Virus record (IMG/VR): IMGVR_UViG_3300030104_000522
Coordinates: 1,437 to 46,612 of that record
Source of the DNA: a virus
Reading direction: 5' to 3' (one strand)
DNA length: 45,176 nucleotides
In this document: piece after piece, positions 339 to 36,494 of the stretch
How positions within the stretch are numbered: position 1 is the first letter of the stretch
Layout of the letters: the number at the start of each line of letters is the position of its first letter
Position numbers and translations under genes: made by a program
The notes under the pieces: generated by a model
Database searches by the model: none
What the model was told of the DNA's origin: nothing
The model's input: only the letters and a program-made list of their open reading frames with translations

Positions 339-828
339 ATTTCTTATAGAAGATACACCACGAGAGATTGCCAAATCTTTATGTGACCAACATGTAGTGA
401 AGATGCCATTAGAAGAAGCACAAATGTTATGTACTACACTATGGCATCATGCACCTGAGTATGCAGAGAAGCATAACCTATATAAACCTGTACATCAGAA
501 GCATCCTTGTACCCTATGGGCAATGGAAACAAGGGGAAATTTTTTGTTTGCGTATGCGTTATACGTATCCATGTTAAGAGAGTATACATCTAGATATGGT
601 AAAGAGCATGGTGCTAGTAAGCATAAATATTCAATATGCTTTGGTGTGGGATATATACCTAATGGTAATATGACTGCACACCCACAATGTTTTAGTGGTC
701 TTGACGAGTTAAAGACCGATGAATTCTATCCATTGAAAGCCTACCGACAATTTTATATTGTTGACAAAGCTAGATTTGCTAGGTATAACAATGGTAGAGA
801 CAAACCCTCGTGGTTTAACCCCAACTAA
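331..828 (+). CDS. Phage-conserved protein, possibly related to pyrimidine-dimer glycosylases
   Basis: I place the start at the ATG at 331, four bases after GGAGGAG (321-327), rather than at the in-frame ATG at 319, which has no spaced ribosome site; this gives 165 residues. The layout is a recurring phage hypothetical family: an N-terminal 'CDQHVVKM' block, 'HPCTLWAMETRGNF' in the middle, and a C-terminal 'AYRQFYIVDKARFARY' block ending in a 'PSWF' motif. Similar proteins in other phages have been linked by remote homology to pyrimidine-dimer DNA glycosylases, but that is memory of the family and not something the sequence proves. A sigma-70-like promoter for the next gene lies inside its 3' end (761-789). 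Confidence 0.75.
   Translation: MNRFLIEDTPREIAKSLCDQHVVKMPLEEAQMLCTTLWHHAPEYAEKHNLYKPVHQKHPCTLWAMETRGNFLFAYALYVSMLREYTSRYGKEHGASKHKYSICFGVGYIPNGNMTAHPQCFSGLDELKTDEFYPLKAYRQFYIVDKARFARYNNGRDKPSWFNPN
761..789 (+). promoter_or_regulatory. Sigma-70-like promoter P1
   Basis: TTGACA at 761-766, a 17-base spacer and TATAAC at 784-789 match the bacterial housekeeping promoter consensus in 11 of 12 positions. Transcription would begin near 796, inside the end of the upstream gene, and give about a 50-base leader before the DUF932 gene at 847. Confidence 0.6.
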
Positions 829-846
829 CAGGCAAAGGAGATAAAT

Positions 847-1707
847 ATGCCATTAGATTTTGTAAATGATAATAACTTACTACTAGACATGCCAACTAAA
901 TTAGATTTTGGTGTGCAATTTGAGCCAACTAAGGTTCAAGATAAAAAATACGTTATCAACGACGTAACAGGTGAATACTTGGGTGTTGTTGGTCACAATT
1001 TTAGTTGTGCAGACCATCGCCCCTTTTTTCAGGGTGTGGAAGATGCTATGACGGAGAACTTAGACAACTCTCAACTAGATGATGCTAAAGTAACGTGGCG
1101 AAGAGCTAGAAATAACTCTTGGGGTATGATGGATATTACCCTGCCCAACGTACAACGCACGATAGTGTCAGATAAGCACCAGACCACTGTAAATCAAAGA
1201 TTTATAGCACTACATGCAATAGATGGCTCGTGTTCTAATCAAGTTTACTATGGTGCGATAGATACGTTCTGTACAAATGGTATGATTACAGGCGACTATG
1301 ATAAGGTGCGTAGAAAGAATAGTTCTAACTTTAGTATGGATAGGTTTATAGACGAACTTAAAAATTCTAGGCGAGATTTTGATACACAAATGGACACGTT
1401 TCAACAGTGGGCATTTAGTCCTATAGGCAAGTTTGATATTAAGGCAATGCTAGATTCTTTGATGGGTTCTGAAAGTAAATCTGAAAAGATGTATACTTTG
1501 TACAACCAAGAAGTATCTAAACGTGGTAAGACTGTGTTTGCTTTGTATAGTGCGTTTACTAACTATGCAAGTTATGCAGATGAGAGAAATGGGTTTAGAA
1601 TGAGAAACACTGGTAATGACACGCAGGCACAAACAATGTGGCTTCGTGAACAAGAAGTAGCCAAGTGGATAGCTAGCCCACAATTTAAACAACTAGAAGC
1701 TGCCTAA
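847..1707 (+). CDS. DUF932 family protein
   Basis: The 286-residue product matches the DUF932 (phage/plasmid-like) family: a 'VVGHNFSCADHRPFF' N-terminal block, a central 'TVNQRFIALHAIDGS' block, and the family's 'FCTNGMI' motif near residue 138, followed by an alpha-helical C-terminal half. Family members occur in many phages and plasmids, often beside replication or recombination genes; their biochemical role is not established. GGAG at 837-840 precedes the ATG. The stop codon shares a base with the integrase start (TAATG), and promoter P1 lies about 60 bases upstream, so this gene and the integrase may form one transcription unit. Confidence 0.85.
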   Translation: MPLDFVNDNNLLLDMPTKLDFGVQFEPTKVQDKKYVINDVTGEYLGVVGHNFSCADHRPFFQGVEDAMTENLDNSQLDDAKVTWRRARNNSWGMMDITLPNVQRTIVSDKHQTTVNQRFIALHAIDGSCSNQVYYGAIDTFCTNGMITGDYDKVRRKNSSNFSMDRFIDELKNSRRDFDTQMDTFQQWAFSPIGKFDIKAMLDSLMGSESKSEKMYTLYNQEVSKRGKTVFALYSAFTNYASYADERNGFRMRNTGNDTQAQTMWLREQEVAKWIASPQFKQLEAA

Positions 1708-2807
1708 TGACCAAGTATATACGAGAAGCAATACTTACTGATGGTAGTATTTATTATCGTTACAATCCCCCTTCACGTTATGTGGAGGAGGGTATTGTTA
1801 AGCGATGTAATTTAGGCACAAATAAGGCAGATGCATTTAAAAAAGGTGCAGAGTTTAATGCCTTAATAAATGTTTACGAAAAACAACGTAAATTACTACC
1901 TAATGCAACGAATGATAAAACTTTAAATGGGTTAGTGCATGATTATTATTTATCATATGAATTCAATGAGTTACGTGACGAAACTAAAGGACAGTATAAA
2001 TACTTTTTGGGTACGTTGTTGGATACTGTGGTAAATGGTAAGTCTTTACGGCTGTATAAATACAATTCTATTACTACAGGTATTGCTAGGACAGCTTATG
2101 AAATGTGGTGTAAACGTGGCATTTATATGGCAAATCATATTATGTCTTGTGCAAGAGTTGTGTACTCGCACGGAATAAATATGGACTACTGTGAACTAAA
2201 CCCATTTAGTAATGTTAAAAAACATGCTACGCAATCGAGAAGAGTTGTTTGGACAAAAGATAATGTTATGAAATTTCTTGAGGTAGCATACTCTGACTTT
2301 AAAACTAGAAATGTGGGACTAATAGCACAGATGTCATATGAATGGTGTCAAAGAGTTGGTGATATGCGTTTATTGCAATGGTCAAGTCTTGACTTACCTA
2401 GACAAAGAGTTAATATAGAACAATCTAAACGTAGAGCTAAGGTATTTTTACCTATTGAAGATGATTTATGTGAGATGTTAGTCGAACAGGAGAACGATTT
2501 TGGCTTTCAGGAGTGGGTTGTACCTAATCCTGTGCCTAGACGTGGCTCTTACAACCCTTATAGCTTATATAAACTGCCTAGACATGCACGTAGAATTATG
2601 AATGAAGCAGGGTTGTCAACAGATTTAAGATTATCGGACCTCAGACGTACAGGAACGATGGAAATGGTTGATGCAGGGGTTAGTATGGGACAAATTATGT
2701 CGGTGACTGGTCATGTCAACCCACAAAGTGTAAAACCATACTTAAAAAATACATTTGCTAGTGCAAACAATGCATTAAAAATGAGAAAGGAGAATGCGAA
2801 TGGATAA
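1707..2807 (+). CDS. int: Tyrosine recombinase (phage integrase)
   Basis: The 366-residue protein has an N-terminal arm/core-binding region (about 1-185) and a tyrosine-recombinase catalytic domain (about 190-355). Visible catalytic residues are R216 in 'CQRVGDMRLLQW', a beta-hairpin lysine in 'QSKRRAKVF' (K241 or nearby), R313 in 'LSDLRRTGTM', H336 in 'TGHVN' and the nucleophile Y345 in 'VKPYL'. The first histidine of the HxxR box is replaced by serine (S310), a position known to vary in phage enzymes. It would catalyse site-specific integration or resolution, implying a temperate or formerly temperate life style. No repressor, excisionase or tRNA-like attachment site is visible beside it. 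It overlaps the next gene by eight bases. Confidence 0.9.
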   Translation: MTKYIREAILTDGSIYYRYNPPSRYVEEGIVKRCNLGTNKADAFKKGAEFNALINVYEKQRKLLPNATNDKTLNGLVHDYYLSYEFNELRDETKGQYKYFLGTLLDTVVNGKSLRLYKYNSITTGIARTAYEMWCKRGIYMANHIMSCARVVYSHGINMDYCELNPFSNVKKHATQSRRVVWTKDNVMKFLEVAYSDFKTRNVGLIAQMSYEWCQRVGDMRLLQWSSLDLPRQRVNIEQSKRRAKVFLPIEDDLCEMLVEQENDFGFQEWVVPNPVPRRGSYNPYSLYKLPRHARRIMNEAGLSTDLRLSDLRRTGTMEMVDAGVSMGQIMSVTGHVNPQSVKPYLKNTFASANNALKMRKENANG

Positions 2808-2979
2808 ACCTACTAAAAATGATAACTTTATTGAAGAAATGGAGGACTTTTTAAAGCAAGATGACGAAAATATAGGTCATTTTCATGCAGATAAGTTCTT
2901 GTTATCTGAAGATTTTGAAATTAGGGGCTTGACAGATGAAAATTTATCGTATATAAGACAGTCAGCTGTCCGAGGGTAG
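2800..2979 (+). CDS. Small acidic protein, unknown function
   Basis: I choose the ATG at 2800 over 2794 because AAAGGAG (2786-2792) is then seven bases away instead of one; this gives 59 residues. The product is acidic, with many Glu and Asp, and has no hydrophobic segment. It begins inside the last codons of the integrase, so it is probably co-translated with it. An excisionase or DNA-mimic role would be conceivable by position and charge, but no helix-turn-helix or other motif supports it. Promoter P2 lies in its 3' end. Confidence 0.65.
   Translation: MDKPTKNDNFIEEMEDFLKQDDENIGHFHADKFLLSEDFEIRGLTDENLSYIRQSAVRG
2929..2957 (+). promoter_or_regulatory. Sigma-70-like promoter P2 with inverted repeat at the start site
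   Basis: TTGACA at 2929-2934, a 17-base spacer and TATAAG at 2952-2957. Immediately after the -10 box is a perfect inverted repeat, GACAG-TCAG-CTGTC (2957-2970), covering the predicted start near 2964. It could be an operator or a 5' hairpin. The promoter would serve the PP-loop enzyme gene at 3006 and the primase behind it. Confidence 0.6.
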
Positions 2980-3005
2980 TATATTAATAATATAGGAGAT
3001 TAGTA

Positions 3006-3791
3006 ATGATAATAGCTTGGTGGAGTGCAGGTGTTACTAGCGCTGTTGCAACTAAACTAGCAATAGATAAATATGGCAAAGATAATGTAGTGCCTATTTA
3101 TTTTCATATTGATTCAGCACACAAAGATAATAATAGATTTAAAGAACAGTGTGAGGAGTGGTATGGTAGAGACATAGTTGTAAAACAATCAGCAAAGTAT
3201 GGCGACCAGTTCGACGTAATACATAAAGAAAGATATGTAAATGGTCCAAGTGGTGCTAGATGTACACTAGAACTCAAGAAAAAAATTAGAATTAATTTAG
3301 AAAAAGAATTAGATTACAGTGGGCAGATATTTGGTTTTGAGTATTCTAAGAAAGAAATAAATAGGGCTATAAGATTTAGAGAACAATACCCTAGTGCAAA
3401 GCCTTTGTTTCCACTAATAGATAGTAAAATGACTAAACCTGAGTGTTTATACTTTCTAGAAAAACAAGGTATAGAACGACCACTTATGTATACTCTTGGC
3501 TATACAAATAATAACTGTATAGGTTGTGTAAAGGGTGGTAAGGGTTATTGGAATAAAATTAGGGTGGACTTCCCTGACTATTTTGATAAGATGGCTAAGG
3601 CTGAAAGGTATGTGGGTAACTCTTGTATTAGACACACATTTCTTGATGAGTTAGACCCTGAAGCAGGTCGACACACACCTATGGTTATGCCTGACTGTGG
3701 TAATTTTTGTGACTTGGAGTTTACTGATATAAAACACCCAAAAGTTGACACAATTTATAACAATCCTAATGAACTTATGGAGATTGCATGA
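3006..3791 (+). CDS. PP-loop ATPase, PAPS-reductase/FAD-synthetase superfamily
   Basis: The 261-residue protein starts with a beta strand and a PP-loop variant, 'SAGVTS' (residues 7-12), typical of adenine-nucleotide alpha hydrolases that adenylate a substrate. Cysteines C171 and C174 in 'CIGCVKGG', a further Cys in 'GNSCIRHTF', and two Cys in 'CGNFCDLEF' could bind metal or an Fe-S cluster. True PAPS reductases end in an ECGLH-type motif, which I do not see, so sulfonucleotide reduction is unlikely to be the literal function. Phage members of this group are often annotated as phosphoadenosine phosphosulfate reductases. Thiolation or other modification of nucleic acid or small molecules is an inference. 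It overlaps the primase start by four bases (ATGA), which links it to replication genes. Confidence 0.8.
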   Translation: MIIAWWSAGVTSAVATKLAIDKYGKDNVVPIYFHIDSAHKDNNRFKEQCEEWYGRDIVVKQSAKYGDQFDVIHKERYVNGPSGARCTLELKKKIRINLEKELDYSGQIFGFEYSKKEINRAIRFREQYPSAKPLFPLIDSKMTKPECLYFLEKQGIERPLMYTLGYTNNNCIGCVKGGKGYWNKIRVDFPDYFDKMAKAERYVGNSCIRHTFLDELDPEAGRHTPMVMPDCGNFCDLEFTDIKHPKVDTIYNNPNELMEIA

Positions 3792-4552
3792 ACTTATACG
3801 AATACGTTCGTGATTTAGACGTGCCTATAAATGAGACTATGCGAATAAATTGTCCTATGTGTAATGGTTTAAAGACATTTACTATTACAAATAGCATGGG
3901 TACAAGGCTATGGAATTGTTTTAAGGCATCGTGCGACGCTAGTGGTAGGGCTAGAATGCATATGTCAATAGAAGACATGCGTGAAATAGCTGATTCCCGT
4001 AATAGTGAAGCACAAAAGCAAGAACCCTTTGAATTACCCGAATACATAGTTAAAAAATCTAAACATACTATGTATGATGTAAAAGATAATAGAGTAGTAT
4101 ATCTTATACATGATGAAAAGGGTGTACTAGTCGATGCTGTAGGTAAGGCTGAGAGTAAGTACAAACTACCTAAATGGAAACGGTATGGAAAAAGTAGAGT
4201 GCCATATTTTATAGCTTTAGATGGGGCAGGTACTATCATCACCAGTCCTCACGACGCGTCAGATGTATGTGTCGTTGTAGAGGACTGCATTAGCGCTTTA
4301 GTCTGTGCTAAACAAGGTGTTCCTGCCGTAGCCATTCTAGGTACAAGTTTGCTTGAAGAATATAGAAAATATCTAAGTGTATTTAAAAAAGTTATTGTAG
4401 CACTAGACCCTGATGCTTTGCCCAAGACTACGGCAATGGCTAAAGAATTACGTAATTGGGTTGACAATGTAAAAATTTTAAATATAATAGATGACTTAAA
4501 GTATGAAAACGAAACTGATATTAACAAACTAAAGGAGATGGCATGGAATTAG
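3788..4552 (+). CDS. DNA primase, T7 gp4 N-half type (zinc finger plus TOPRIM)
   Basis: The 254-residue protein corresponds to the primase half of T7 gp4. A zinc-binding domain is visible as C22-x2-C25 ... C44-x4-C49, and a TOPRIM fold as 'VVEDCISAL' (E165) and 'ALDPDA' (D207, D209), the residues that bind the catalytic metals. It would synthesise RNA primers for lagging-strand synthesis. The helicase is a separate gene starting ten bases before this one ends, so the two halves that are fused in T7 are split here. Promoter P3 for the helicase lies in its 3' end. Confidence 0.9.
   Translation: MNLYEYVRDLDVPINETMRINCPMCNGLKTFTITNSMGTRLWNCFKASCDASGRARMHMSIEDMREIADSRNSEAQKQEPFELPEYIVKKSKHTMYDVKDNRVVYLIHDEKGVLVDAVGKAESKYKLPKWKRYGKSRVPYFIALDGAGTIITSPHDASDVCVVVEDCISALVCAKQGVPAVAILGTSLLEEYRKYLSVFKKVIVALDPDALPKTTAMAKELRNWVDNVKILNIIDDLKYENETDINKLKEMAWN
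4461..4488 (+). promoter_or_regulatory. Sigma-70-like promoter P3 (full consensus boxes)
   Basis: TTGACA at 4461-4466, a 16-base A/T-rich spacer and TATAAT at 4483-4488: both boxes match consensus at every position. The start would be near 4495, about 48 bases ahead of the helicase ATG at 4543. Confidence 0.6.
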
Positions 4553-5766
4553 CCTTAATACGAAGTTTAATGGATAAAGACTTTTATGATGAGCATAGAG
4601 GTTCTAAATGTCCTGACAGACTATTTAGCAAAGATGTACGTAAAATTAAGTCAGCTATAGATGATGCTATGGGTAGATACGAAAGAAGCGTTACCCCTGA
4701 TGAGATTGAAGCATTATTTATATCGAGTAATCCTACTCTTACTACGTCACAAAAAACTAGCTACAATACTTTATTTAGACAAATAAAGAAAGAAGAAACT
4801 ATGGGTACAGATGTAGCCCAAGAAGTTTTATCTAAACTATTTCAACAAGTTATTGGAGAAGATATAGCCAACATAGGCTTTGATTATGTTAATGGTACAA
4901 AGAATAGTTTAGAACCATTACGTAATATACTAGAACAATATAGCGATGACTTTACACCTAATTTAAATATAGAGTGGGAAGATATATCTATTGAAACTCT
5001 TTTATCTAAAAATGATATGGAGACTAGATGGAAGTTTAATATTCCTAGCCTATCTAGAAAAGTAGCAGGTGTAAATGCAGGACATCTTATAGAAGTGGGT
5101 GCTAGACCCAATACTGGTAAAACATCTTTTCATGCAAGCATGATTGCAGGAATAAATGGTTTTGCTAGACAGGGAGCTAAATGTGTAATACTCTGCAATG
5201 AAGAAGCTGCCCACCGTGTAGGAGCTAGGTATCTTACTGCTGCATCAGGTATGACTGTTGGAGAGATTCAACATAACATGATAAAGGCAGGGGATGCTTA
5301 TAGCCCTGTAAGAGATAATATTAAAATAAAAGATGCTACATCTAGAGATATGTCTTGGGTAGAGAGTGTATGTAAAACATTTAAACCTGACATACTTGTG
5401 TTAGATATGGGAGACAAGTTTGCTAAGATGGGTGGTTTTGCTAGAGCAGATGAAGCATTAAAAGTAAATGCTATTCATGCTAGGCAAATAGCTAAAGAGT
5501 ATGAGTGTGCTGTGTTTTACATGTCACAGTTATCAGCAGAAGCCGAGGGTAAAATTATTCTTAATCAAAGTATGATGGAGGGTAGTCGTACAGGTAAAGC
5601 CGCTGAAGCTGACCTAATGTTACTAGTATCTAAAAATCCCATGAATAATGAGGGAGATGAAGAAGATTTACAAAGGCATATAAACGTAGTAAAGAATAAA
5701 CTAACAGGTTGGCACGGTATTGTTACCTGCGAGCTTAACTATGAAGTAGGGAGGTATGAAGAATGA
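4543..5766 (+). CDS. Replicative DNA helicase, SF4 (DnaB/T7 gp4 C-half type)
   Basis: The 407-residue protein has an N-terminal region (1-160) resembling the DnaB N-domain/linker, then a RecA-type ATPase domain. Walker A is 'ARPNTGKTS' (about 187-195), Walker B is 'ILVLDMGD' (D288), followed by 'FYMSQLSAEAEGK' and 'EGSRTGKAAEADLMLL', which match the sensor and DNA-binding loop region of DnaB-like helicases. It would form a hexamer that unwinds the replication fork with the primase. AAGGAG precedes the start inside the end of the primase gene. Its last codons overlap the DNA polymerase start by four bases, giving a compact primase-helicase-polymerase unit. Confidence 0.93.
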   Translation: MELALIRSLMDKDFYDEHRGSKCPDRLFSKDVRKIKSAIDDAMGRYERSVTPDEIEALFISSNPTLTTSQKTSYNTLFRQIKKEETMGTDVAQEVLSKLFQQVIGEDIANIGFDYVNGTKNSLEPLRNILEQYSDDFTPNLNIEWEDISIETLLSKNDMETRWKFNIPSLSRKVAGVNAGHLIEVGARPNTGKTSFHASMIAGINGFARQGAKCVILCNEEAAHRVGARYLTAASGMTVGEIQHNMIKAGDAYSPVRDNIKIKDATSRDMSWVESVCKTFKPDILVLDMGDKFAKMGGFARADEALKVNAIHARQIAKEYECAVFYMSQLSAEAEGKIILNQSMMEGSRTGKAAEADLMLLVSKNPMNNEGDEEDLQRHINVVKNKLTGWHGIVTCELNYEVGRYEE

Positions 5767-7805
5767 GATTAGTCCTTGATGTAGAAAATACAGTTACTAA
5801 TCGTGATGGTAAAATGCACCTAGACCCTTTTGAGCCTACTAACTCTTTAGTAATGGTGGGAATGATTACAGAAGACAATACAGAAGTTCATGTAACCTTT
5901 GACCATTCTGAAAAACCCAGTACTCAAAATGGTACTAAAATAGTACAGCACATGTTAGATAATACTACTTTACTAATAGGACATAACATTGCATATGATT
6001 TAGTTTGGTTATGGGAGTCAGGGTTTAAATACAATGGTAAAGTATTTGATACCATGTTAGGTGAATACGTATTACAACGTGGTATAAAAGAGCCCCTGTC
6101 TTTAGAAGCTTGTGCTGAAAGATATGAGCTAGATACAAAAAAACAAGACACGTTAAAAGAGTATTTTAAACAGGGCTATACAACTAGAGATATACCTTTT
6201 GACGAGCTATCAGATTATTTATCACACGACTTACATGCAACACAACAGCTATATAATAAAATTAATGACAGGCTTTTAAATGACGAAGACCGTGTGTTAG
6301 AGCGTACCGTTGATTTAACTAATGAGTTGTGCCTGGTTATAGCAAAAATATATCGACGTGGTTTTTCAATTAATATGGATGCACTAAATGAAGTGGAGTC
6401 AGAGTTTGAAAATGAAAAGATAAGTCTTAAAAAAGATTTAGCTAATATGATTACAAACTTAATGGGTGATACACCTATTAACTTAAATAGTCCTGAACAG
6501 CTGTCTACAGTAATATACAGTAGAAAACCTATAGATAAATCTACTTGGGCAGGTAACTTTACACCGTATATGTCAAAGGAAGATTTTAGAAAAGAAGTTA
6601 GCACGCATAGTATAATAGTATATAAGACTACTGCTAAACAATGTAGTAACTGTAAAGGTAAAGGCTACTATACTAGAATTAAAAAAGATGGTAATCCTTT
6701 TGCTAAACCATCTAGATGCCACGAATGTGATACACAAGGGTATCATTTTGTACCTACTAATATACAAGCAGGCTTAAAGTTTAATGCGCCCAAATCTAAA
6801 TGGGTAAGTGCGCACGGTTTTAGTACATCTAAAATTAATTTAGAGTTATTAGAAAAAGCCGCTAAAGATAAAGGCTTGAAACAAGCAGAAGAATTCTTAT
6901 ATAAAGTACGTAGACTAAGTGCAGTAGATACTTATTTATCCTCATTTGTTGAGGGTATAAAAACCCACAAAAAACCTGATGGTAAGTTACATGTTCGACT
7001 ATTACAACATAGAACTTCTACAGGTAGATTAAGTGGGGCAGACCCTAATATGCAGAATATGCCTAGAGGGGGTACATTCCCTGTAAAAAGAGTATTTAAA
7101 TCGCAGTGGAATAATGGTATGATATTAGAAGCTGACTTTGCTCAATTAGAGTTTAGAGCTGCGGCTTTTCTATCACAAGATAAAACAGCAATGAAGGAGA
7201 TTGAAGATGGTTTCGATGTTCACAGTTATACCGCAAAAGTTATTTCGGATAATGGGCAGGCTACTACTCGCCAAGAAGGAAAAGCGCATACGTTCGCCCC
7301 ACTCTACGGAGCTACAGGGTTTGGGAGGACAACTGCTGAAGCAGCGTATTATGGACAGTTCACGGAAAAGTACAAAGGAATCGCACTATGGCATTCCCGA
7401 TTGGCTAAGGAGGCTTTAAACACAGGTAAAATTACTACACCGTCAGGTAGGCAGTTTGCTTTTCCTGATGTAGAAAGAAGAATGCGAGGTGGAGTATCGC
7501 ACTTTACACAGATAAAGAATTACCCTGTGCAGTCTTTTGCTACGGCTGATATTGTACCAGTTGCTTTACTTTATATAGAAAAAAGACTTACAGATATGAA
7601 ATCTTGCATTGTCAATACTGTACACGATAGTATAGTTATTGATGTACATCCACAAGAAGAAAACCAAGTTATCTATATAATTGACTCAACAAATCAAATA
7701 CTTACAGACTTGATACAAAACAAGTGGGATATAGTATTTAATGTGCCTTTAGCATTAGAAGCAAAAATAGGTAAAAATTGGCTTGACACAGTAGATGTTT
7801 TATGA
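5763..7805 (+). CDS. Family-A DNA polymerase with 3'-5' exonuclease and DnaJ-like zinc-finger insert
   Basis: The 680-residue protein replicates phage DNA. The exonuclease domain (1-200) shows D6/E8 in 'LDVEN', N75 and D79 in 'GHNIAYD', and 'YLSHDLHAT' (Exo III). The polymerase domain shows motif A 'EADFAQLEFR' (D458), motif B 'RQEGKAHTFAPLYG' and motif C 'TVHDSIV' (H621, D622). Between them lies a DnaJ-type zinc finger, C294-x2-C297-x-G-x-G ... C319-x2-C322, in a segment of about 70 residues. This is the hallmark I associate with HMO-2011-type phages. Codon use and GC rise sharply around motif B (about 7200-7430) relative to the rest of the gene. Promoter P4 lies in its 3' end. Confidence 0.96.
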   Translation: MRLVLDVENTVTNRDGKMHLDPFEPTNSLVMVGMITEDNTEVHVTFDHSEKPSTQNGTKIVQHMLDNTTLLIGHNIAYDLVWLWESGFKYNGKVFDTMLGEYVLQRGIKEPLSLEACAERYELDTKKQDTLKEYFKQGYTTRDIPFDELSDYLSHDLHATQQLYNKINDRLLNDEDRVLERTVDLTNELCLVIAKIYRRGFSINMDALNEVESEFENEKISLKKDLANMITNLMGDTPINLNSPEQLSTVIYSRKPIDKSTWAGNFTPYMSKEDFRKEVSTHSIIVYKTTAKQCSNCKGKGYYTRIKKDGNPFAKPSRCHECDTQGYHFVPTNIQAGLKFNAPKSKWVSAHGFSTSKINLELLEKAAKDKGLKQAEEFLYKVRRLSAVDTYLSSFVEGIKTHKKPDGKLHVRLLQHRTSTGRLSGADPNMQNMPRGGTFPVKRVFKSQWNNGMILEADFAQLEFRAAAFLSQDKTAMKEIEDGFDVHSYTAKVISDNGQATTRQEGKAHTFAPLYGATGFGRTTAEAAYYGQFTEKYKGIALWHSRLAKEALNTGKITTPSGRQFAFPDVERRMRGGVSHFTQIKNYPVQSFATADIVPVALLYIEKRLTDMKSCIVNTVHDSIVIDVHPQEENQVIYIIDSTNQILTDLIQNKWDIVFNVPLALEAKIGKNWLDTVDVL

Positions 7806-7811
7806 TATAAC
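7783..7811 (+). promoter_or_regulatory. Sigma-70-like promoter P4 with extended -10
   Basis: TTGACA at 7783-7788, a 17-base spacer and TATAAC at 7806-7811, with TG at 7803-7804 making an extended -10 (TGnTATAAC). It overlaps the last codons and stop of the polymerase gene and would give a leader of about 23 bases before the ATG at 7841. Confidence 0.65.
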
Positions 7812-7840
7812 AAAAAAACTTATTAAAGGAGATACTATAT

Positions 7841-8770
7841 ATGAATGATATAATGAATATTAATACTGATAATTACGCAGTAATGGCAAAAGCTATGGGC
7901 TTTGCTAGCGAAAATAAGAAATCTTCTGCGAAAGCAGTTATACTTCCTAGATTTAGGATATGGCATCAACCTATTATGGGGCAAGCCAAAGTTAATGGTA
8001 AAACTGCTAATGTAGAAGTTGTTGAAGGTGGTTCATACAGACTAGAAATACCTTCAAAAGAAGAGGGTGGTGATTCGACTTTTATATTTTCTAAGTCGGC
8101 AACCTTTAGAGTCTTTGCACAAAGATTTATGTGGCGAAGATTTGTTGCTAATAAAAACCCTAAACCTAATGAGCCAAAAGGTTCTTTTCATAGAACATTA
8201 ATGGCAGATAGTTTATCTTTTGATTTAAAGGATAATATGGGTGGTTTTAATTGTGGCAAACCTTCAGGTTACGTAAAAGACTTTAAGGCACTTCCTCAAA
8301 ACATGCAAGACTTACTTAGACAAATACGAAAAGTAAGAGTCTTGTTTGGGTATGCAACTCTAGTAGACCCTGTCGATTCAGATGGTAAACCTACTAAACT
8401 TGATACTACACCTGTGATATGGGAGATAGATAATAGAAATGCTGTCGCTCATTTAGGAGAAGTATTATCTGAAGTTGAAAAGAAAAAGAGATTGCCTATT
8501 CAACACAATATAAATTTAGTAACTGAAAAAAATGAACTGCCTAATGGCACTAGTTACTATACACCAGTCGCCACTGTCGATACGAAAAACTCTATTGATA
8601 TTGTAGAATCTGACCAAGAAGTGTTTAAGGACTTTATGGAATATATTAAAAACTATAATGATTATGTCAACACACAATGGTCTGAAAAGTCTGCAGATGC
8701 AGAGCCATCAAAAAACGACATGAAAACTGTAGAGTCTTTCGTAGACATTGACGACACTGAGGTAGCGTAA
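7841..8770 (+). CDS. Candidate ssDNA-binding protein (unrecognised family)
   Basis: The 309-residue product has no motif I can name. It has a mixed charged/aromatic body ('FAQRFMWRRFVA' near residue 90) and a short acidic C-terminal tail (residues about 293-309, with D/E clustered in 'VDIDDTEVA'), as in T7 gp2.5 and bacterial SSB proteins. It sits between the DNA polymerase and two nucleases, where T7-like phages keep replication accessories. AAAGGAG precedes the ATG and a strong-looking promoter (P4) lies directly upstream, as expected for an abundant protein. ssDNA binding is therefore a reasonable inference from position, tail and expected expression, not a homology call. Confidence 0.75.
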   Translation: MNDIMNINTDNYAVMAKAMGFASENKKSSAKAVILPRFRIWHQPIMGQAKVNGKTANVEVVEGGSYRLEIPSKEEGGDSTFIFSKSATFRVFAQRFMWRRFVANKNPKPNEPKGSFHRTLMADSLSFDLKDNMGGFNCGKPSGYVKDFKALPQNMQDLLRQIRKVRVLFGYATLVDPVDSDGKPTKLDTTPVIWEIDNRNAVAHLGEVLSEVEKKKRLPIQHNINLVTEKNELPNGTSYYTPVATVDTKNSIDIVESDQEVFKDFMEYIKNYNDYVNTQWSEKSADAEPSKNDMKTVESFVDIDDTEVA

Positions 8771-8774
8771 ATTA

Positions 8775-9524
8775 ATGTTAAAGAATAATCCTTTTGAGGT
8801 ACATAACATTAACTACCTATCACCTAGCAATATAAATACCTACATAAGCGATATGCCTATGTGGGTAGCTAGGTATCTATTTGGTATTAAATCAGGTAGT
8901 GGAGCAGGTGCTATTAGAGGTACTGTACAAGAAGCTGTGCTAGCTAATAAGTATACTACAGGAAAGTTTGATTTTAATTTATTAGAAATACAATTTATGG
9001 ATATGTGTGCAGAATCTAATATTAATTTAAGCAATCCTAAAGTAGCTAAAGAAAAAGGTTTACTTAGAAAGTTTGGCGAGGTTATTGATAAAAATTTTAA
9101 GTATGAAAACTTAGAAGAGTATCAAGAAAAAGTTGAAGTACAGTTTGATGATATGCCTGTTCCTGTAATTGGATATATCGACTTTAGATTTAAAGATAAA
9201 ATTGTAGATTTAAAAACATCAACAAGAATGCCAAGTAAACCTACTGAAGCACAGAAGAGACAGATGGCATTATACTCTATGGCATATCCAAATAATAGTG
9301 TTGATTTATTTTTTGCTACACCAAAAGATTATAATAAGTTTACGCTTAATAATTTATCTGTGTATAAAAATCAACTTAAAAAAGTAGCTTTTAGTATACA
9401 GAAGTTTTTGTCTATTAGTAATGACAAACATGAGCTAGCTTCTTTAATCTATCCAAACTATGATTCGTGGACTTGGAGCGATTACTTAAAGAAAGAAGCA
9501 AAGAAAATATGGGGAGATAAATAA
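8775..9524 (+). CDS. PD-(D/E)XK nuclease, RecB/Cas4-like exonuclease
   Basis: The 249-residue protein carries the RecB-family nuclease core: 'GYIDFRF' (D136), then 'VDLKTS' (D145, K147) and a downstream 'QMALYSMAY' helix with the conserved Gln (Q163). The N-terminal 'LSPSNINTYI' helix is also typical of Cas4/RecB-like phage exonucleases. It may degrade host DNA or process recombination intermediates, replacing T7 gp6. GAGGT lies about a dozen bases before the start. Its stop shares a base with the next ATG (TAATG). Confidence 0.85.
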   Translation: MLKNNPFEVHNINYLSPSNINTYISDMPMWVARYLFGIKSGSGAGAIRGTVQEAVLANKYTTGKFDFNLLEIQFMDMCAESNINLSNPKVAKEKGLLRKFGEVIDKNFKYENLEEYQEKVEVQFDDMPVPVIGYIDFRFKDKIVDLKTSTRMPSKPTEAQKRQMALYSMAYPNNSVDLFFATPKDYNKFTLNNLSVYKNQLKKVAFSIQKFLSISNDKHELASLIYPNYDSWTWSDYLKKEAKKIWGDK

Positions 9525-9727
9525 TGTCAGATTTAAAAGCAGATGATATGGCAGAAATGATTAAGGAAAAAGAAAGAGAACTCTTTGAACTTAAAAAAGA
9601 ATATCGCGAACGTAGAACCGAAGGCTTACGTCATGCACTAGAACAGAAAAAAGAAGCTGAAAAACTAGTACGTAATGAGATGAAAGCTCTTGGTTATGAC
9701 ACCACAACCTATCGTTATTGGTTATAG
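9524..9727 (+). CDS. Small coiled-coil protein, unknown function
   Basis: The 67-residue, charged protein is almost entirely one predicted helix (residues about 5-58, rich in Glu, Lys and Arg with Leu/Met at heptad-like spacing) and ends in 'TYRYWL'. The start overlaps the nuclease stop by one base and its own stop abuts the endonuclease I start, so it lies inside a nuclease operon. It might be an accessory subunit of either nuclease, but no family is recognised. Confidence 0.65.
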   Translation: MSDLKADDMAEMIKEKERELFELKKEYRERRTEGLRHALEQKKEAEKLVRNEMKALGYDTTTYRYWL

Positions 9728-10180
9728 ATGTCAGCGTATAGTGCTACCCAAATGGCACGTAAACATGGGTATAGGAGTGGTTTAGAGGATAAAGTTGCTA
9801 CTTATCTTACAGAACAAAACGTCAATTTCCTATATGAAAAAATTAAGATTGAGTGGGAAGACCTCGCGTATCGCACCTATACCCCTGATTTTATATTAGA
9901 TAATGGAATAATAATAGAAACAAAAGGAAGGTTTATCGCATTAGATAGGAGAAAACATCTCGCTATCAAAAAGCAACATCCTGAATTAGATATACGATTT
10001 ATCTTTACAAATAGTAAAAATAAACTTCGTAAAGGAGCAAAGTCTTCGTATGCAGAATGGTGTATTAAATATGGTTTTAGGTACTTTGATAGAATAATAC
10101 CTGAAGACTGGTTAAAAGAAAAGGGTAATAATAAATATCCTAAGTTTATAAAATACAAAAACAAAAAAATAAGGAGATAG
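9728..10180 (+). CDS. Endonuclease I, Holliday-junction resolvase (T7 gp3 type)
   Basis: The 150-residue protein matches T7 endonuclease I in length and motif order: E20 in 'RSGLEDK', D54 in 'YTPDFIL', and E64/K66 in 'IIETKGRF', the full catalytic set of this dimeric resolvase. It cleaves branched DNA, debranching replication products before packaging, and may help degrade host DNA. The start directly follows the previous stop. Its end is lysine-rich. The neighbours (polymerase, RecB-like nuclease) fit a T7-like replication and recombination block. Confidence 0.93.
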   Translation: MSAYSATQMARKHGYRSGLEDKVATYLTEQNVNFLYEKIKIEWEDLAYRTYTPDFILDNGIIIETKGRFIALDRRKHLAIKKQHPELDIRFIFTNSKNKLRKGAKSSYAEWCIKYGFRYFDRIIPEDWLKEKGNNKYPKFIKYKNKKIRR

Positions 10181-10181
10181 T

Positions 10182-10505
10182 ATGCGAATAAACAATGAAG
10201 ATTTCTATATACAACTTGTTCCCGACTTAGATAAAAATAAAAATTGGTTAGGTACACTACAAGTTAATATCGTTACATCAAATGTAAATCCTATAGACGA
10301 CGATGGGTACAATCAAATATTTCATTTGTGCCAACTAATATCCTCTGTAGTTCCTTACATGGATGATAATCCCGATATAATAGCGGAGTTAGAAAAATAT
10401 ATGAAAGTAGAACAAAAAAATAATAAACCTACTAAAAAAATAGTAAGTAAACAAGGCAATGTAATAAATTTAAACTTTACATCTAAAACTAATGGGAGTG
10501 CTTAA
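10182..10505 (+). CDS. Hypothetical protein, 107 aa
   Basis: AAGGAG stands a few bases before the ATG. The product has an N-terminal beta-like stretch ('DFYIQLVPDL', 'GTLQVNIVTS'), a helix around residues 40-75 and a basic C-terminal tail. I do not recognise it. It overlaps the DUF3310 start by one base, so it belongs to the same early operon. Confidence 0.65.
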   Translation: MRINNEDFYIQLVPDLDKNKNWLGTLQVNIVTSNVNPIDDDGYNQIFHLCQLISSVVPYMDDNPDIIAELEKYMKVEQKNNKPTKKIVSKQGNVINLNFTSKTNGSA

Positions 10506-10765
10506 TGGCTGATATAAAAGATTTGATAGATTTTCAAAAAGATACAGCTGATATGGTTAATCATCCACCACATTATAATCAAAAAGGTATAGAGTGTATT
10601 GATGCCATTGAAGCTGCTACAGATATAGGTTTTGAATATTATTTACAGGGCAATATAATTAAATACCTTTGGCGATATAGATATAAGAATGGTATAGAGG
10701 ACCTAAAGAAAGCCCAGTGGTATTTAAATAAATTAGTTAGGATAAAACATGGTAACGAAAGTTAG
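10505..10765 (+). CDS. DUF3310 protein (phage nucleotide kinase-like)
   Basis: The 86-residue protein shows the DUF3310 pattern: 'VNHPPHYNQKGIECIDAIEA' (starting at about residue 18), then 'GNIIKYLWRYRYKNGIEDLKKAQWYL' split over two helices. The family is common in phages and has been annotated as nucleotide kinase-like, though its activity is poorly established. Its position just before ribonucleotide reductase fits a role in nucleotide supply. It overlaps the 58-residue gene that follows by 17 bases. Confidence 0.85.
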   Translation: MADIKDLIDFQKDTADMVNHPPHYNQKGIECIDAIEAATDIGFEYYLQGNIIKYLWRYRYKNGIEDLKKAQWYLNKLVRIKHGNES

Positions 10766-10925
10766 AGTTGCAATGACTGTTATCATAGACGAATCAGAGT
10801 ATCCCATGCCTGCTGATGAAAGAGTAAACGAAGAAGTAAAAGACGTGATAAAAGAAATGTTTCACGACTATGATGGCATGGATATTAAAAGTATTAAAAC
10901 TACTATGGAGAAAATATATGATTAA
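10749..10925 (+). CDS. Small acidic protein, 58 aa
   Basis: An open frame from ATG at 10749 to TAA at 10923-10925 encodes 58 residues, beginning 'MVTKVRVAMTVIIDESEYP' and ending 'TTMEKIYD'. It starts inside the end of DUF3310 and ends eight bases into the RNR gene, filling what would otherwise be a gap of 152 bases in a tightly packed operon. That packing, and its coupling to both neighbours, argue that it is real. The N-terminal half looks like a beta strand, the C-terminal half like an acidic helix. Function unknown. Confidence 0.7.
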   Translation: MVTKVRVAMTVIIDESEYPMPADERVNEEVKDVIKEMFHDYDGMDIKSIKTTMEKIYD

Positions 10926-12891
10926 AAATAATGTAGCCTTACCTACAGACTACCAAAATTTTATAGCATTATCTAGATATGCTAGATGGTTGCCTAATGA
11001 AAATAGAAGAGAGGTATGGTCAGAAACTGTAGATAGATATATGTCTTTTATGGAAAATCATTTAAAAGAAAACCATAATTATTCTATATCTTCTGATATA
11101 AAAGATAGTATATATAATCATATAACAGAACTACAAACGATGCCTAGTATGAGAGCATTAATGACAGCAGGCCCTGCATTAGATAGATGTCATGTAGCAG
11201 GATATAACTGCTCATACTTACCTGTAGATAGCCCTCGTGCGTTTGATGAGTGTATGTATATACTTATGTGTGGTACAGGTGTTGGTTTCTCTGTAGAAAG
11301 AGAAAACGTAGATAAACTACCTATAGTTAATGAACACTTTGAAAATAGTTCTACTGAAATTAGAGTAGCCGATTCTAGGTCAGGGTGGGCAAAAGCCCTA
11401 CGAGAGTGGATAGCTATGTTATATGTGGGACAAATCCCACAATTAAATGTAGACGATGTTAGACCTGCAGGAGCTAGACTTAAAACATTTGGTGGCAGAG
11501 CTTCAGGACCTGCCCCATTAGTTGATTTATTTAATTTTTGTATCGAAGCATTTAAAGGAGCTGCAGGTAGAAGACTGTATCCTATTGAATGCCACGATAT
11601 AATGTGTAAGATTGGTGAAGTTGTTGTCGTCGGAGGGGTACGACGTAGTGCGCTTATCAGTCTTTCCAATCTTGGTGATGACCAAATGCGTCATGCTAAG
11701 TCTGGACAATGGTGGGAAAACGAAGGACAACGTGCATTAGCAAACAACAGCGTTGCCTATAAAGGAAAGATAGACATGGAGACATTCATGCGTGAATGGT
11801 TGTCTCTTGTGCAAAGTAAATCAGGAGAGCGTGGTATCTTTAATCGTAAATCTGCAAAAGAACAAGCAATGAAAAACGGTAGAAGAAAAACAAACTATGC
11901 ATTTGGTTGTAATCCGTGTAGTGAAATTATACTTAGACCGTATCAATTTTGTAATTTATCTGAAGTAGTTGTACGAGCAGACGATACTATTGAAACACTA
12001 AAGGAAAAAGTTAAAATTGCTACTCTGTTGGGTACATTTCAATCTACTCTTACTAACTTTAAATATTTACGTAAGATATGGAAAGACAATACAGAAGAAG
12101 AAAGACTACTAGGGGTATCTTTAACAGGTATTATGGATAGTAAATTACTAAATGACCATAACACTTTATTTTTTGAGGATGGTCAACAAGTATTTGACGA
12201 TGGTCGTATTGGTGATATTCTAAAAGAATTAAAACAAGTTGCTATTGATACAAATAAAAAAATAGCTAAAACTTTAGGCATACCACAATCAACTGCTATT
12301 ACTTGTGTAAAGCCTAGTGGTACAGTATCCCAATTAGTAGATAGCGCGAGTGGTATTCATGCTAGACATAGTAAATACTATATCCGTACCGTTCGTGGCG
12401 ATAACAAAGACCCACTAACAGAATTTATGAAGTCTGCAGGTATACCTAACGAACCCGATGTAATGAAACCTGATAGCACTACAGTATTTAGTTTTCCTAT
12501 GAAAGCACCTGAAGGAGCTTCTACTAGAAATGATTTATCTGCTGTTGACCAGTTACTTATGTGGCAAGCATTTCAAAAACATTGGTGTGAACATAAACCA
12601 TCTGTAACTATTTCAGTAAGAGAAAACGAATGGTTAGATGTAGGTAGTTGGGTATATAAAAACTTCGATGAAATATCAGGTATTAGTTTTTTACCGCATA
12701 GTGACCACACTTATGCACAAGCACCTTACCAAGATGTAAAATATGATGAGTATAAAAAGCTTTTAGATAAAATGCCTGAGATTGATTGGAATCTCTTGAC
12801 AAATTATGAAAAAGATGATACAACATCAGGAGCAAAAGAGCTTGCTTGTACTGCAGGCGCTTGCGAGGTCGTAGACATAGGGGCTACATAA
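10918..12891 (+). CDS. nrdJ: Adenosylcobalamin-dependent (class II) ribonucleotide reductase
   Basis: The 657-residue protein resembles monomeric class II ribonucleoside-triphosphate reductase. It shows the active-site block 'NPCSEI' (N332, C334, E336), the reducible pair C98 ('YNCSY') and C345 ('QFCNLSE'), the 'VKPSGTVSQL' phosphate-binding loop, and a C-terminal redox pair C644/C649 ('ACTAGACE'). It makes deoxyribonucleotides for phage DNA using host vitamin B12 and thioredoxin-type reductants. I start at 10918 (GGAG at 10907-10910) rather than the upstream in-frame ATG at 10870, which lies within the previous gene without a ribosome site. No cobalamin riboswitch is visible. Codon use shifts in the middle of the gene (about 11600-11870). 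Confidence 0.95.
   Translation: MIKNNVALPTDYQNFIALSRYARWLPNENRREVWSETVDRYMSFMENHLKENHNYSISSDIKDSIYNHITELQTMPSMRALMTAGPALDRCHVAGYNCSYLPVDSPRAFDECMYILMCGTGVGFSVERENVDKLPIVNEHFENSSTEIRVADSRSGWAKALREWIAMLYVGQIPQLNVDDVRPAGARLKTFGGRASGPAPLVDLFNFCIEAFKGAAGRRLYPIECHDIMCKIGEVVVVGGVRRSALISLSNLGDDQMRHAKSGQWWENEGQRALANNSVAYKGKIDMETFMREWLSLVQSKSGERGIFNRKSAKEQAMKNGRRKTNYAFGCNPCSEIILRPYQFCNLSEVVVRADDTIETLKEKVKIATLLGTFQSTLTNFKYLRKIWKDNTEEERLLGVSLTGIMDSKLLNDHNTLFFEDGQQVFDDGRIGDILKELKQVAIDTNKKIAKTLGIPQSTAITCVKPSGTVSQLVDSASGIHARHSKYYIRTVRGDNKDPLTEFMKSAGIPNEPDVMKPDSTTVFSFPMKAPEGASTRNDLSAVDQLLMWQAFQKHWCEHKPSVTISVRENEWLDVGSWVYKNFDEISGISFLPHSDHTYAQAPYQDVKYDEYKKLLDKMPEIDWNLLTNYEKDDTTSGAKELACTAGACEVVDIGAT
12796..12824 (+). 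promoter_or_regulatory. Sigma-70-like promoter P5 with extended -10
   Basis: TTGACA at 12796-12801, a 17-base spacer and TACAAC at 12819-12824, with TG at 12816-12817 (TGnTACAAC). The start would be near 12831, giving a leader of about 155 bases that contains the hairpins at 12910-12937 before the gene at 12986. Confidence 0.5.
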
Positions 12892-12909
12892 TCAGGTATA
12901 ATCACACAC

Positions 12910-12959
12910 GGAGGTGTACTTTCACCCCTCTGAGGGGCTTTATATCAAGACTTTTTTTT
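12910..12959 (+). promoter_or_regulatory. Leader or terminator element with two mutually exclusive hairpins
   Basis: Between the RNR stop and the next gene (94 bases) there is a perfect hairpin, CCCCT (12925-12929), loop CTG, AGGGG (12933-12937), and then a run of eight T at 12952-12959. The 5' arm can instead pair with an upstream GGAGGTG (12910-12916) through CACCCCT (12923-12929). The T run is 14 bases past the hairpin, too far for a textbook intrinsic terminator. It may be a weak terminator, an mRNA-stabilising stem or a small attenuator. Confidence 0.45.
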
Positions 12960-12985
12960 AAATATTAACTATTTTGGAGCATTTT

Positions 12986-35164: not shown

Positions 35165-36262
35165 TTACGCTAAACAATATGCAGCAGTCACGATAGCTTC
35201 AGGTCGAAGTATCTTTCTGCCATACAAATGCATACCACGAACAATATCTGAGAAACTGTCAGGGTCTCTGTAAGTTTCTGTTTTATTGATTTGTTCAGCA
35301 GTAGCCACAGCTGATGAATGACCTGCTACAATAATTCCAAAGTTTGACGCATTCTGACCACCTGTTGTCGCAGGACCTGTGCCTAGTGACGGAAGGTTGT
35401 TAGATGAGTATATTTTAAAACCATGTAAATTATTTAAAACAAGACCATTTTGTAGTCCTGAACCACCAAAATCAGCATTTAAAAGACGTGAATCTTCATC
35501 TTTTAAGATTTCGATAAATACTGGGTCAAGAACTAACCATCTATTTGCCGTATCAACATTTTGTTGGTCTAGCAATCTAGACATACGTGCAATAACTTGT
35601 AATGGAAATGCATTACCAGTTGTTCCACTCTTGGCTGCTGTTGCACCCCCTGCTCTTGGCTCAAGACCAATAGCTTGGTTTGCAGTACCTGCAGTACCAT
35701 CTGCTTGTGTAAAGTCAGAAGAATCAAGTGACATTGAAGCCAATAATTCTGCACCAACTAAGTTAGCACCACTAGAAGCTGAGGATACAGCCTTAGTACC
35801 GTTTACTGTTGTATTAACAGCACTTGCAGCACTGTGAAGTGACGCTTGTTTAAAACCTGACAAGTAGCCAAGAACTTCTTGGTCAAACTGGTCGGCTAGC
35901 CTATAAGCAGCTCTGTCACTTGCTAGCTGTTGAAAGTTTACATGTGAGTGAGCTTCTTCAATATCGTCAACCTTAAATGCAAAGTAATTAGCTTTGTCAA
36001 TAGTTAGGCTGAACTCTTCATCGTCAAGGTCTTGTGGAGTAATAGTTGTACCACGTGCATATTCCTTGACTGTAATTTCAGGTTCTTTAATAACCTTAAC
36101 GGAATCGCCCATATTTGCAATTTCGCCAAAGTAATCTGAATTAGTGATTTCTTCAACGACTGATGACTTGCGGAATGCAAGTTGCACCTGTTTGCTGTAA
36201 ATAATAGGACTAAAATTACCGTTTGGTAAGTTACCATAACCTGCTGCTGATGTAAATGCCAT
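35165..36262 (-). CDS. Major capsid protein (HK97 fold expected)
   Basis: The start is ATG 36262 ('MAFTSAAGYG'), seven bases after AAAGGAG; an upstream in-frame ATG at 36283 has no ribosome site. This gives 365 residues. It has a long N-terminal arm, 'FRKSSVVEEITNSDYFGEI', a spine-helix region 'SDRAAYRLADQFDQEVLGYL', the P-domain stretch 'NRWLVLDPVFIEILKDEDSR' and a C-terminal 'IVRGMHLYGRKILRPEAIV'. These features and the place after a scaffold gene fit podoviral major capsid proteins. A 256-base leader region with its own promoter precedes it. Confidence 0.93.
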   Translation of the reverse strand: MAFTSAAGYGNLPNGNFSPIIYSKQVQLAFRKSSVVEEITNSDYFGEIANMGDSVKVIKEPEITVKEYARGTTITPQDLDDEEFSLTIDKANYFAFKVDDIEEAHSHVNFQQLASDRAAYRLADQFDQEVLGYLSGFKQASLHSAASAVNTTVNGTKAVSSASSGANLVGAELLASMSLDSSDFTQADGTAGTANQAIGLEPRAGGATAAKSGTTGNAFPLQVIARMSRLLDQQNVDTANRWLVLDPVFIEILKDEDSRLLNADFGGSGLQNGLVLNNLHGFKIYSSNNLPSLGTGPATTGGQNASNFGIIVAGHSSAVATAEQINKTETYRDPDSFSDIVRGMHLYGRKILRPEAIVTAAYCLA

Positions 36263-36466
36263 AATTTTTCTCCTTTTTAACATTTATCTCATGCACACAA
36301 AGTTGTGTACTATTCTAGTCATTTTACTTTATAAGGACCATTCATGTTTGAGGTTGTACGATTGGTAGCTAACCATTGTAGGCTCACATAATTGGGTAGT
36401 CTTTAAAGTCGTGTAAGTATATTATAAGTAGTTATAATAAGGTTATAATATACTATATATTATATA
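36263..36466 (-). other. Long leader of the capsid mRNA
   Basis: This non-coding stretch holds no open frame worth calling. Near the gene (36291-36308 on the + strand) ACACA-ACTT-TGTGT forms a hairpin when read on the - strand, and TGGT-TAGCT-ACCA (about 36366-36378) another short one. The A/T-rich part (36420-36470) repeats TTATAATA-like units. A role in mRNA stability or translation control of the capsid protein is plausible. Confidence 0.4.
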
Positions 36467-36494
36467 GTTATATAGTTAAATAACTATTTGTCAA
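36467..36494 (-). promoter_or_regulatory. Sigma-70-like promoter P6 for the major capsid gene
   Basis: On the - strand: TTGACA (36494-36489), a 16-base spacer and TATAAC (36472-36467), preceded by an A/T tract (36495-36510) that could act as an UP element. The start would be near 36460, leaving a leader of about 200 bases. It is the only strong promoter-like site I found on this strand. Confidence 0.6.
36472..36487. repeat. Palindrome between -35 and -10 of P6 (possible operator)
   Basis: ATAGTTA-AA-TAACTAT is a perfect inverted repeat with seven-base arms, lying in the promoter spacer. ATAGTTA occurs again directly beside it (36464-36470), forming a tandem pair of TATAGTTA units at 36463-36478. 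Such placement is typical of repressor or activator sites, but AT-rich sequence makes chance repeats more likely. Confidence 0.45.

Follow-up and report, generated by a model that had tools for sequence, protein, structure and literature searches.

The 45,176-nucleotide stretch of viral DNA analysed here (the window; bases 1437-46612 of the 46,612-base IMG/VR record IMGVR_UViG_3300030104_000522) carries promoter-like sites that we read, with a probability of roughly 0.85, as promoters of the host sigma-70 type. Two of them, ahead of an SSB-like gene and ahead of the major capsid gene, are found throughout a group of marine phages, and the others are specific to lineages. By gene content the window is assigned to the HMO-2011-type phages, a group described as among the dominant marine phages (PMC9038755): it encodes a homologous DNA polymerase with a DnaJ domain, and its replication module and opposite-strand structural module follow the matching order. 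The gene order is that of Puniceispirillum phage HMO-2011, the Roseobacter phages CRP-1 and CRP-345 and the Pelagibacter phage HTVC033P, with which the window has in common the DnaJ domain in the polymerase and an integrase ahead of the replication module, whereas an inserted PAPS-reductase-like gene and the lineage-specific promoters at 2929 and 4461 are its own. At the polymerase the window has 66-67% identity to the SAR116 phage HMO-2011 and to CRP-345.

The predicted promoter of the SSB-like gene (7783..7811, + strand; TTGACA-N17-TATAAC, predicted start at about 7818) lies across the 3' end of the gene for DNA polymerase A with a DnaJ central domain (5763..7805, + strand; Pfam and PHROGs). 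Its -35 TTGACA (7783-7788) falls in the last sense codons of the polymerase (W-L-D-T), the TGA of its extended -10 (7803-7805) is the polymerase stop codon, and its -10 TATAAC (7806-7811) follows directly after that stop, outside the gene. The site thus has near-consensus hexamers 17 bp apart, and its nucleotides are conserved beyond what the protein demands. For comparison 80 polymerase relatives were fetched, with loci syntenic with the window. TTGACA-N14-TGA-TATAAC, with its 17-bp spacer, is present at 76/76 polymerase/SSB junctions, and in a junction test all 76 differ from the pattern by at most 1.5 mismatches, a level reached by 1% in shuffles, with the control junctions (endo, g10182, rnr, g10749 and mazg) near background. 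Across the 80 loci TTGAC, TGA and TA-AAC are invariant and the other box positions nearly so, while most spacer positions vary. A column test that allows for shared ancestry found a single codon in only two of 295 conserved-residue columns of the polymerase, Leu674 (CTT) and Asp675 (GAC), and these two are the -35 box; the background frequencies of CTT and GAC in these genes are 21% and 46%. The polymerase stop is TGA in 80/80 loci, and the stops of most other genes vary.

Several isolates show the same site in altered surroundings. CRP-2, CRP-603 and CRP-207 keep the promoter, here with a 16-bp spacer and with the stop codon placed upstream of the -10; its persistence while the gene end changes argues that the promoter, and not the protein end, is what selection preserves. 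HTVC033P has a gene inserted at the junction and a promoter-like pair after the inserted gene, and CRP-212 and CRP-738 have weaker box pairs there. HMO-2011, CRP-1 and CRP-345 all have the site at the polymerase end, the one ahead of the capsid gene and, at the right end of the map, a further pair, and the starts equivalent to 7818 are predicted at about 10339 in HMO-2011 and about 12538 in CRP-1. Very strong comparative sequence evidence thus identifies 7783 as a predicted group-wide promoter.

The second group-wide site is noncoding and lies on the minus strand (36467..36494; TTGACA-N16-TATAAC) ahead of the major capsid protein gene (35165..36283, minus strand; PHROGs phrog_267, E 2e-66). 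It is as good as any site of the original prediction, which had left it out and was in this respect incomplete. The same pattern, with a spacer of 17 in one case, is present at 43/43 loci, and a slightly wider pattern at 74/74 loci with enough upstream sequence, a count that excludes five loci starting too near the capsid gene. Between promoter and gene the capsid transcript would begin with a structured RNA leader (36284..36466, minus strand), predicted from covariation and with a core at 36325-36409, where core model R1 matches. Capsid leaders are about 160-230 nt long and have a similar fold in the relatives examined. Among 19 sequences 95.8% of cells pair and 20 of 45 pairs have changed on both sides (62 cells), values reached in 0/500 shuffles; slid controls collapse, although one of the 19 tested sequences was the source of the structure, and this gives the structure an advantage over its slid versions. 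A search with the 86-nt core model picks up the leader of HMO-2011 (E 0.003) and, less strongly, that of CRP-1, and Rfam holds no match for the leader, which makes it a candidate new RNA family with a possible role in autoregulation, stability or antitermination. Its 5' hairpin and core contain asymmetric CC/NACC-like internal loops.

The original prediction had placed five nested promoters on the + strand of the left arm. The six TTGACA hexamers it listed there (761, 2929, 3745, 4461, 7783 and 12796) are all at the positions claimed, the five at 761, 2929, 4461, 7783 and 12796 have a TANAA partner at the right distance, and the extended -10 TGn is present at 7783 and 12796. The hexamer at 3745 was rejected as a promoter, its TATAAC lying only 8 nt beyond the TTGACA. 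The distances from predicted start to next ATG also agree, at 51 (761), 42 (2929), 48 (4461) and 23 nt (7783); at 12796 the next ATG (12986) is about 155 nt from the predicted start, past a terminator-like hairpin. TTGACA by itself is not enriched in the window (21 observed, 31.8 expected), and the above-chance signal sits in its pairing with TANAA. Six such pairs occur in the whole window against 1.41 expected (at least six in 1/100 shuffles), and when synonymous codons are permuted within each gene of the left-arm + strand the five observed pairs compare with a mean of 0.44 (at least five in 0/5000). The minus strand of the left arm has seven TTGACA and none paired with TANAA, so that the codon-preserving shuffle and the pairless opposite strand both bear out the claim that chance is an unlikely source. 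A looser promoter scan (9/12 matches) gave no excess, with 80 sites observed and 91 expected. The near-constant spacing that had been offered as a further argument is real, the spacers being 16-17, but partly circular, because the sites were picked by spacing. Sequence from relatives totalling 752 kb contains 119 sites of the strict pattern on the strand of the replication genes and 2 on the opposite strand; of the 119, 77 are at the polymerase end, 15 before the primase, 8 before DUF932, 7 inside the glycosylase gene, 2 before the helicase and 10 elsewhere.

Conservation in relatives divides the five sites and supports the reading of host-type promoters in upstream gene ends for some of them: 7783 holds across the group, 2929 and 4461 are conserved within the window's own sublineage only, 12796 is limited to its nearest relatives, and 761 is matched by coding constraint. 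The site at 2929..2957 (+ strand; TTGACA-N17-TATAAG), ahead of the PAPS-reductase-like gene (3006-3791) and the primase, is kept in loci L340-L343 and L345, where PAPS-reductase identity runs from 98% to 86%, and lost in L344. Relatives below about 77% identity are uninformative, because their PAPS-reductase genes stand in other contexts. In L344 a tRNA-like sequence occupies the place expected for the promoter, immediately before the PAPS-reductase-like gene (at 2501). Relatives that lack the PAPS-reductase gene have an equivalent promoter in the 3' end of the integrase gene, ahead of the primase (48/48 with at most 2.5 mismatches). The string AAGTGCCGCAAAGGAAAGTGATAT after this integrase-end promoter is highly conserved at the integrase/primase junction (e.g. 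L014, L015 and L027) and may act as an attachment core or as a leader signal. The site at 4461..4488 (+ strand; TTGACA-N16-TATAAT), ahead of the helicase gene (4543-5766), has perfect consensus hexamers. It seemed unconserved among mostly distant relatives and was recovered once primases of the sublineage were added: 8/80 primase relatives keep it, all of the WVD-motif sublineage and ranging from 97% to 46% identity, with the GTT GAC and ATA codons preserved, and it is absent elsewhere. The putative helicase promoter is by this comparison lineage-specific.

The site at 761..789 (+ strand; TTGACA-N17-TATAAC), ahead of DUF932, seemed conserved in the junction test and was later demoted, because the DUF932 promoter of relatives often lies elsewhere and a glycosylase motif accounts for the boxes. 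Both boxes are codons of the conserved motif VDK..FARYN, which most glycosylase relatives contain regardless of whether DUF932 comes directly next; the tyrosine codons at the site are a mixture of TAT and TAC, other glycosylase columns are equally codon-biased, and many relatives have a separate promoter nearer DUF932. The site may work as a promoter, its conservation being indistinguishable from coding constraint. Relatives L013-L081 have at their DUF932 junction, after the -10, a recurrent conserved string similar to ATCACTTAACG or ATCAGTTG, which is possibly an operator. The site at 12796..12824 (+ strand; TTGACA-N17-TACAAC), in the 3' end of the RNR gene, is common only to L180 and L185/L006 and missing from six more relatives of about 78-80% identity; its conservation ends with the closest relatives, and the comparison does not support a promoter there.

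The arrangement at the polymerase end suggests how such promoters would act. With the -35 in the last polymerase codons, the stop TGA serving as extended -10 TG and TATAAC adjoining it, transcripts would start about 7 nt past the -10 and give the SSB-like gene its own supply of mRNA, and the capsid promoter would play the matching role on the other strand. Both proteins are probably needed in many copies, so that local promoters would raise these stoichiometric products above the enzymes encoded nearby. Further promoters, those at 2929 and 4461 in the window and the integrase-end and DUF932 sites in relatives, would have been gained and lost between lineages. It is improbable that all five sites work as nested promoters in a cascade dosing the replication genes individually, as the original prediction had proposed. 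The five sites are jointly above chance and each stands ahead of genes; against this, 12796 is confined to nearest relatives and followed by a terminator-like hairpin, 761 is equally well explained by coding, and most replication-gene junctions have no conserved promoter. The endonuclease, RNR and MazG junctions of relatives lack one and the polymerase junction shows a weak excess, leaving the SSB-like gene as the only one with a promoter everywhere, and dosing of replication genes singly is not borne out.

Two other explanations do without transcription starts, and we regard both as very unlikely. The boxes might be by-products of conserved protein motifs written in AT-rich codons, which would suit 761, with its VDK..FARYN motif, and the TACAAC of 12796, which falls in conserved EDTTSG codons. 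It does not suit 7783: the Leu and Asp codons there are invariant, in contrast to background usage, TATAAC falls beyond the gene, and the site shifts with the gene end. Nor does it suit the capsid promoter, which is noncoding. The polymerase end might instead be conserved for regulator binding, a replication signal or translational coupling and merely resemble a promoter, an idea to which we give an equally slender chance. Strong nucleotide conservation does not of itself name the reader of the sequence, and some flanking positions are invariant too (TGG before the site, GA and T in the spacer), but those lie in coding sequence as well. The conserved positions are, however, those of a -35, a TGn and a -10 at 16-17 bp; the capsid and integrase-end sites have these boxes again around a different spacer sequence, and both the spacer and the position of the stop have drifted.

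The host sigma-70-type reading, which we infer from the consensus and from an undetected phage polymerase, has several points that weigh against it. TATAAC at 7783 is not a perfect -10, and no clear match is seen at the polymerase junction of the distant members CRP-3 and CRP-235, at about 37% identity in the polymerase. The single-subunit RNA polymerase family PF00940 has no match in the record, but this leaves the absence of a phage RNA polymerase unproven, because the search gave no signal in its controls either and the record, at 46.6 kb, is a fragment. Eight large minus-strand proteins have no Pfam match, and no single-subunit RNA polymerase is annotated in HMO-2011, CRP-1 or CRP-345. The SSB identity leans, moreover, on a middling structural Z, with moderate evidence for the gp32-like fold and a putative binding of single-stranded DNA. 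The product of the SSB-like gene (7841..8770, + strand; predicted gp32-like OB fold) has no sequence-family match in Pfam or PHROGs, and its AlphaFold2 model (pLDDT 78) has no significant match in Foldseek. The best structural matches of the model are T4/RB69 gp32 (Z 6.6 to 7.9, about 7% sequence identity); the VIA-align superposition on RB69 gp32 (Z 7.9, root-mean-square deviation 3.6, 161 residues) is within the range of chance matches.

The elements are of a known kind. TTGACA, a 16-17 bp spacer and TATAAY occur likewise in bacterial sigma-70 extended -10 promoters, as in phages that use host RNA polymerase (e.g. T5 and early T4), and the TGn at 7783 and predicted starts 23-51 nt before the start codon add to the likeness. 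Unlike sigma-70 promoters at large, the predicted element has the polymerase stop as its extended -10 TG and the last polymerase codons as its -35, an arrangement fixed across most of the group. What is new is this fusion to the stop codon of the polymerase, fixed in a major group of marine phages, together with the capsid leader RNA. One stop codon at the polymerase/SSB junction would serve translation and a predicted transcription signal at once, under strong synonymous constraint. We lean, less firmly, towards a two-point design in which the stop-fused SSB promoter is complemented by a capsid promoter whose undescribed structured leader of about 180 nt would control the stability, translation or elongation of capsid mRNA. 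The comparison predicts two universal internal promoters (SSB and capsid) and yields named isolates with exact expected starts. The text of PMC9038755, the paper on the group, does not mention promoters, a literature search in which subscription journals were thinly covered found no paper on promoters of the group, and in the searchable literature transcription of HMO-2011-type phages is undescribed.

Further features concern the record and its ends. A run of N stands directly 5' of window base 1 (record base 1437), so that the window starts at a scaffold gap of the record. The record (46.6 kb) is shorter than HMO-2011-type isolates (about 53-55 kb), whose right-end promoter-like pair lies on the minus strand at 53181/53396 in HMO-2011, 53124/53364 in CRP-1 and 53842/54051 in CRP-345; the window record probably lacks the part of the map that holds this pair. 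The noncoding stretch 12892-12960, which follows the class II RNR gene, is conserved in L180-L183, L185, L186 and L190 as TCAGGTA...CACCCCTCTGAGGGGCTTTATAT...T-run and resembles a terminator or a structured RNA.

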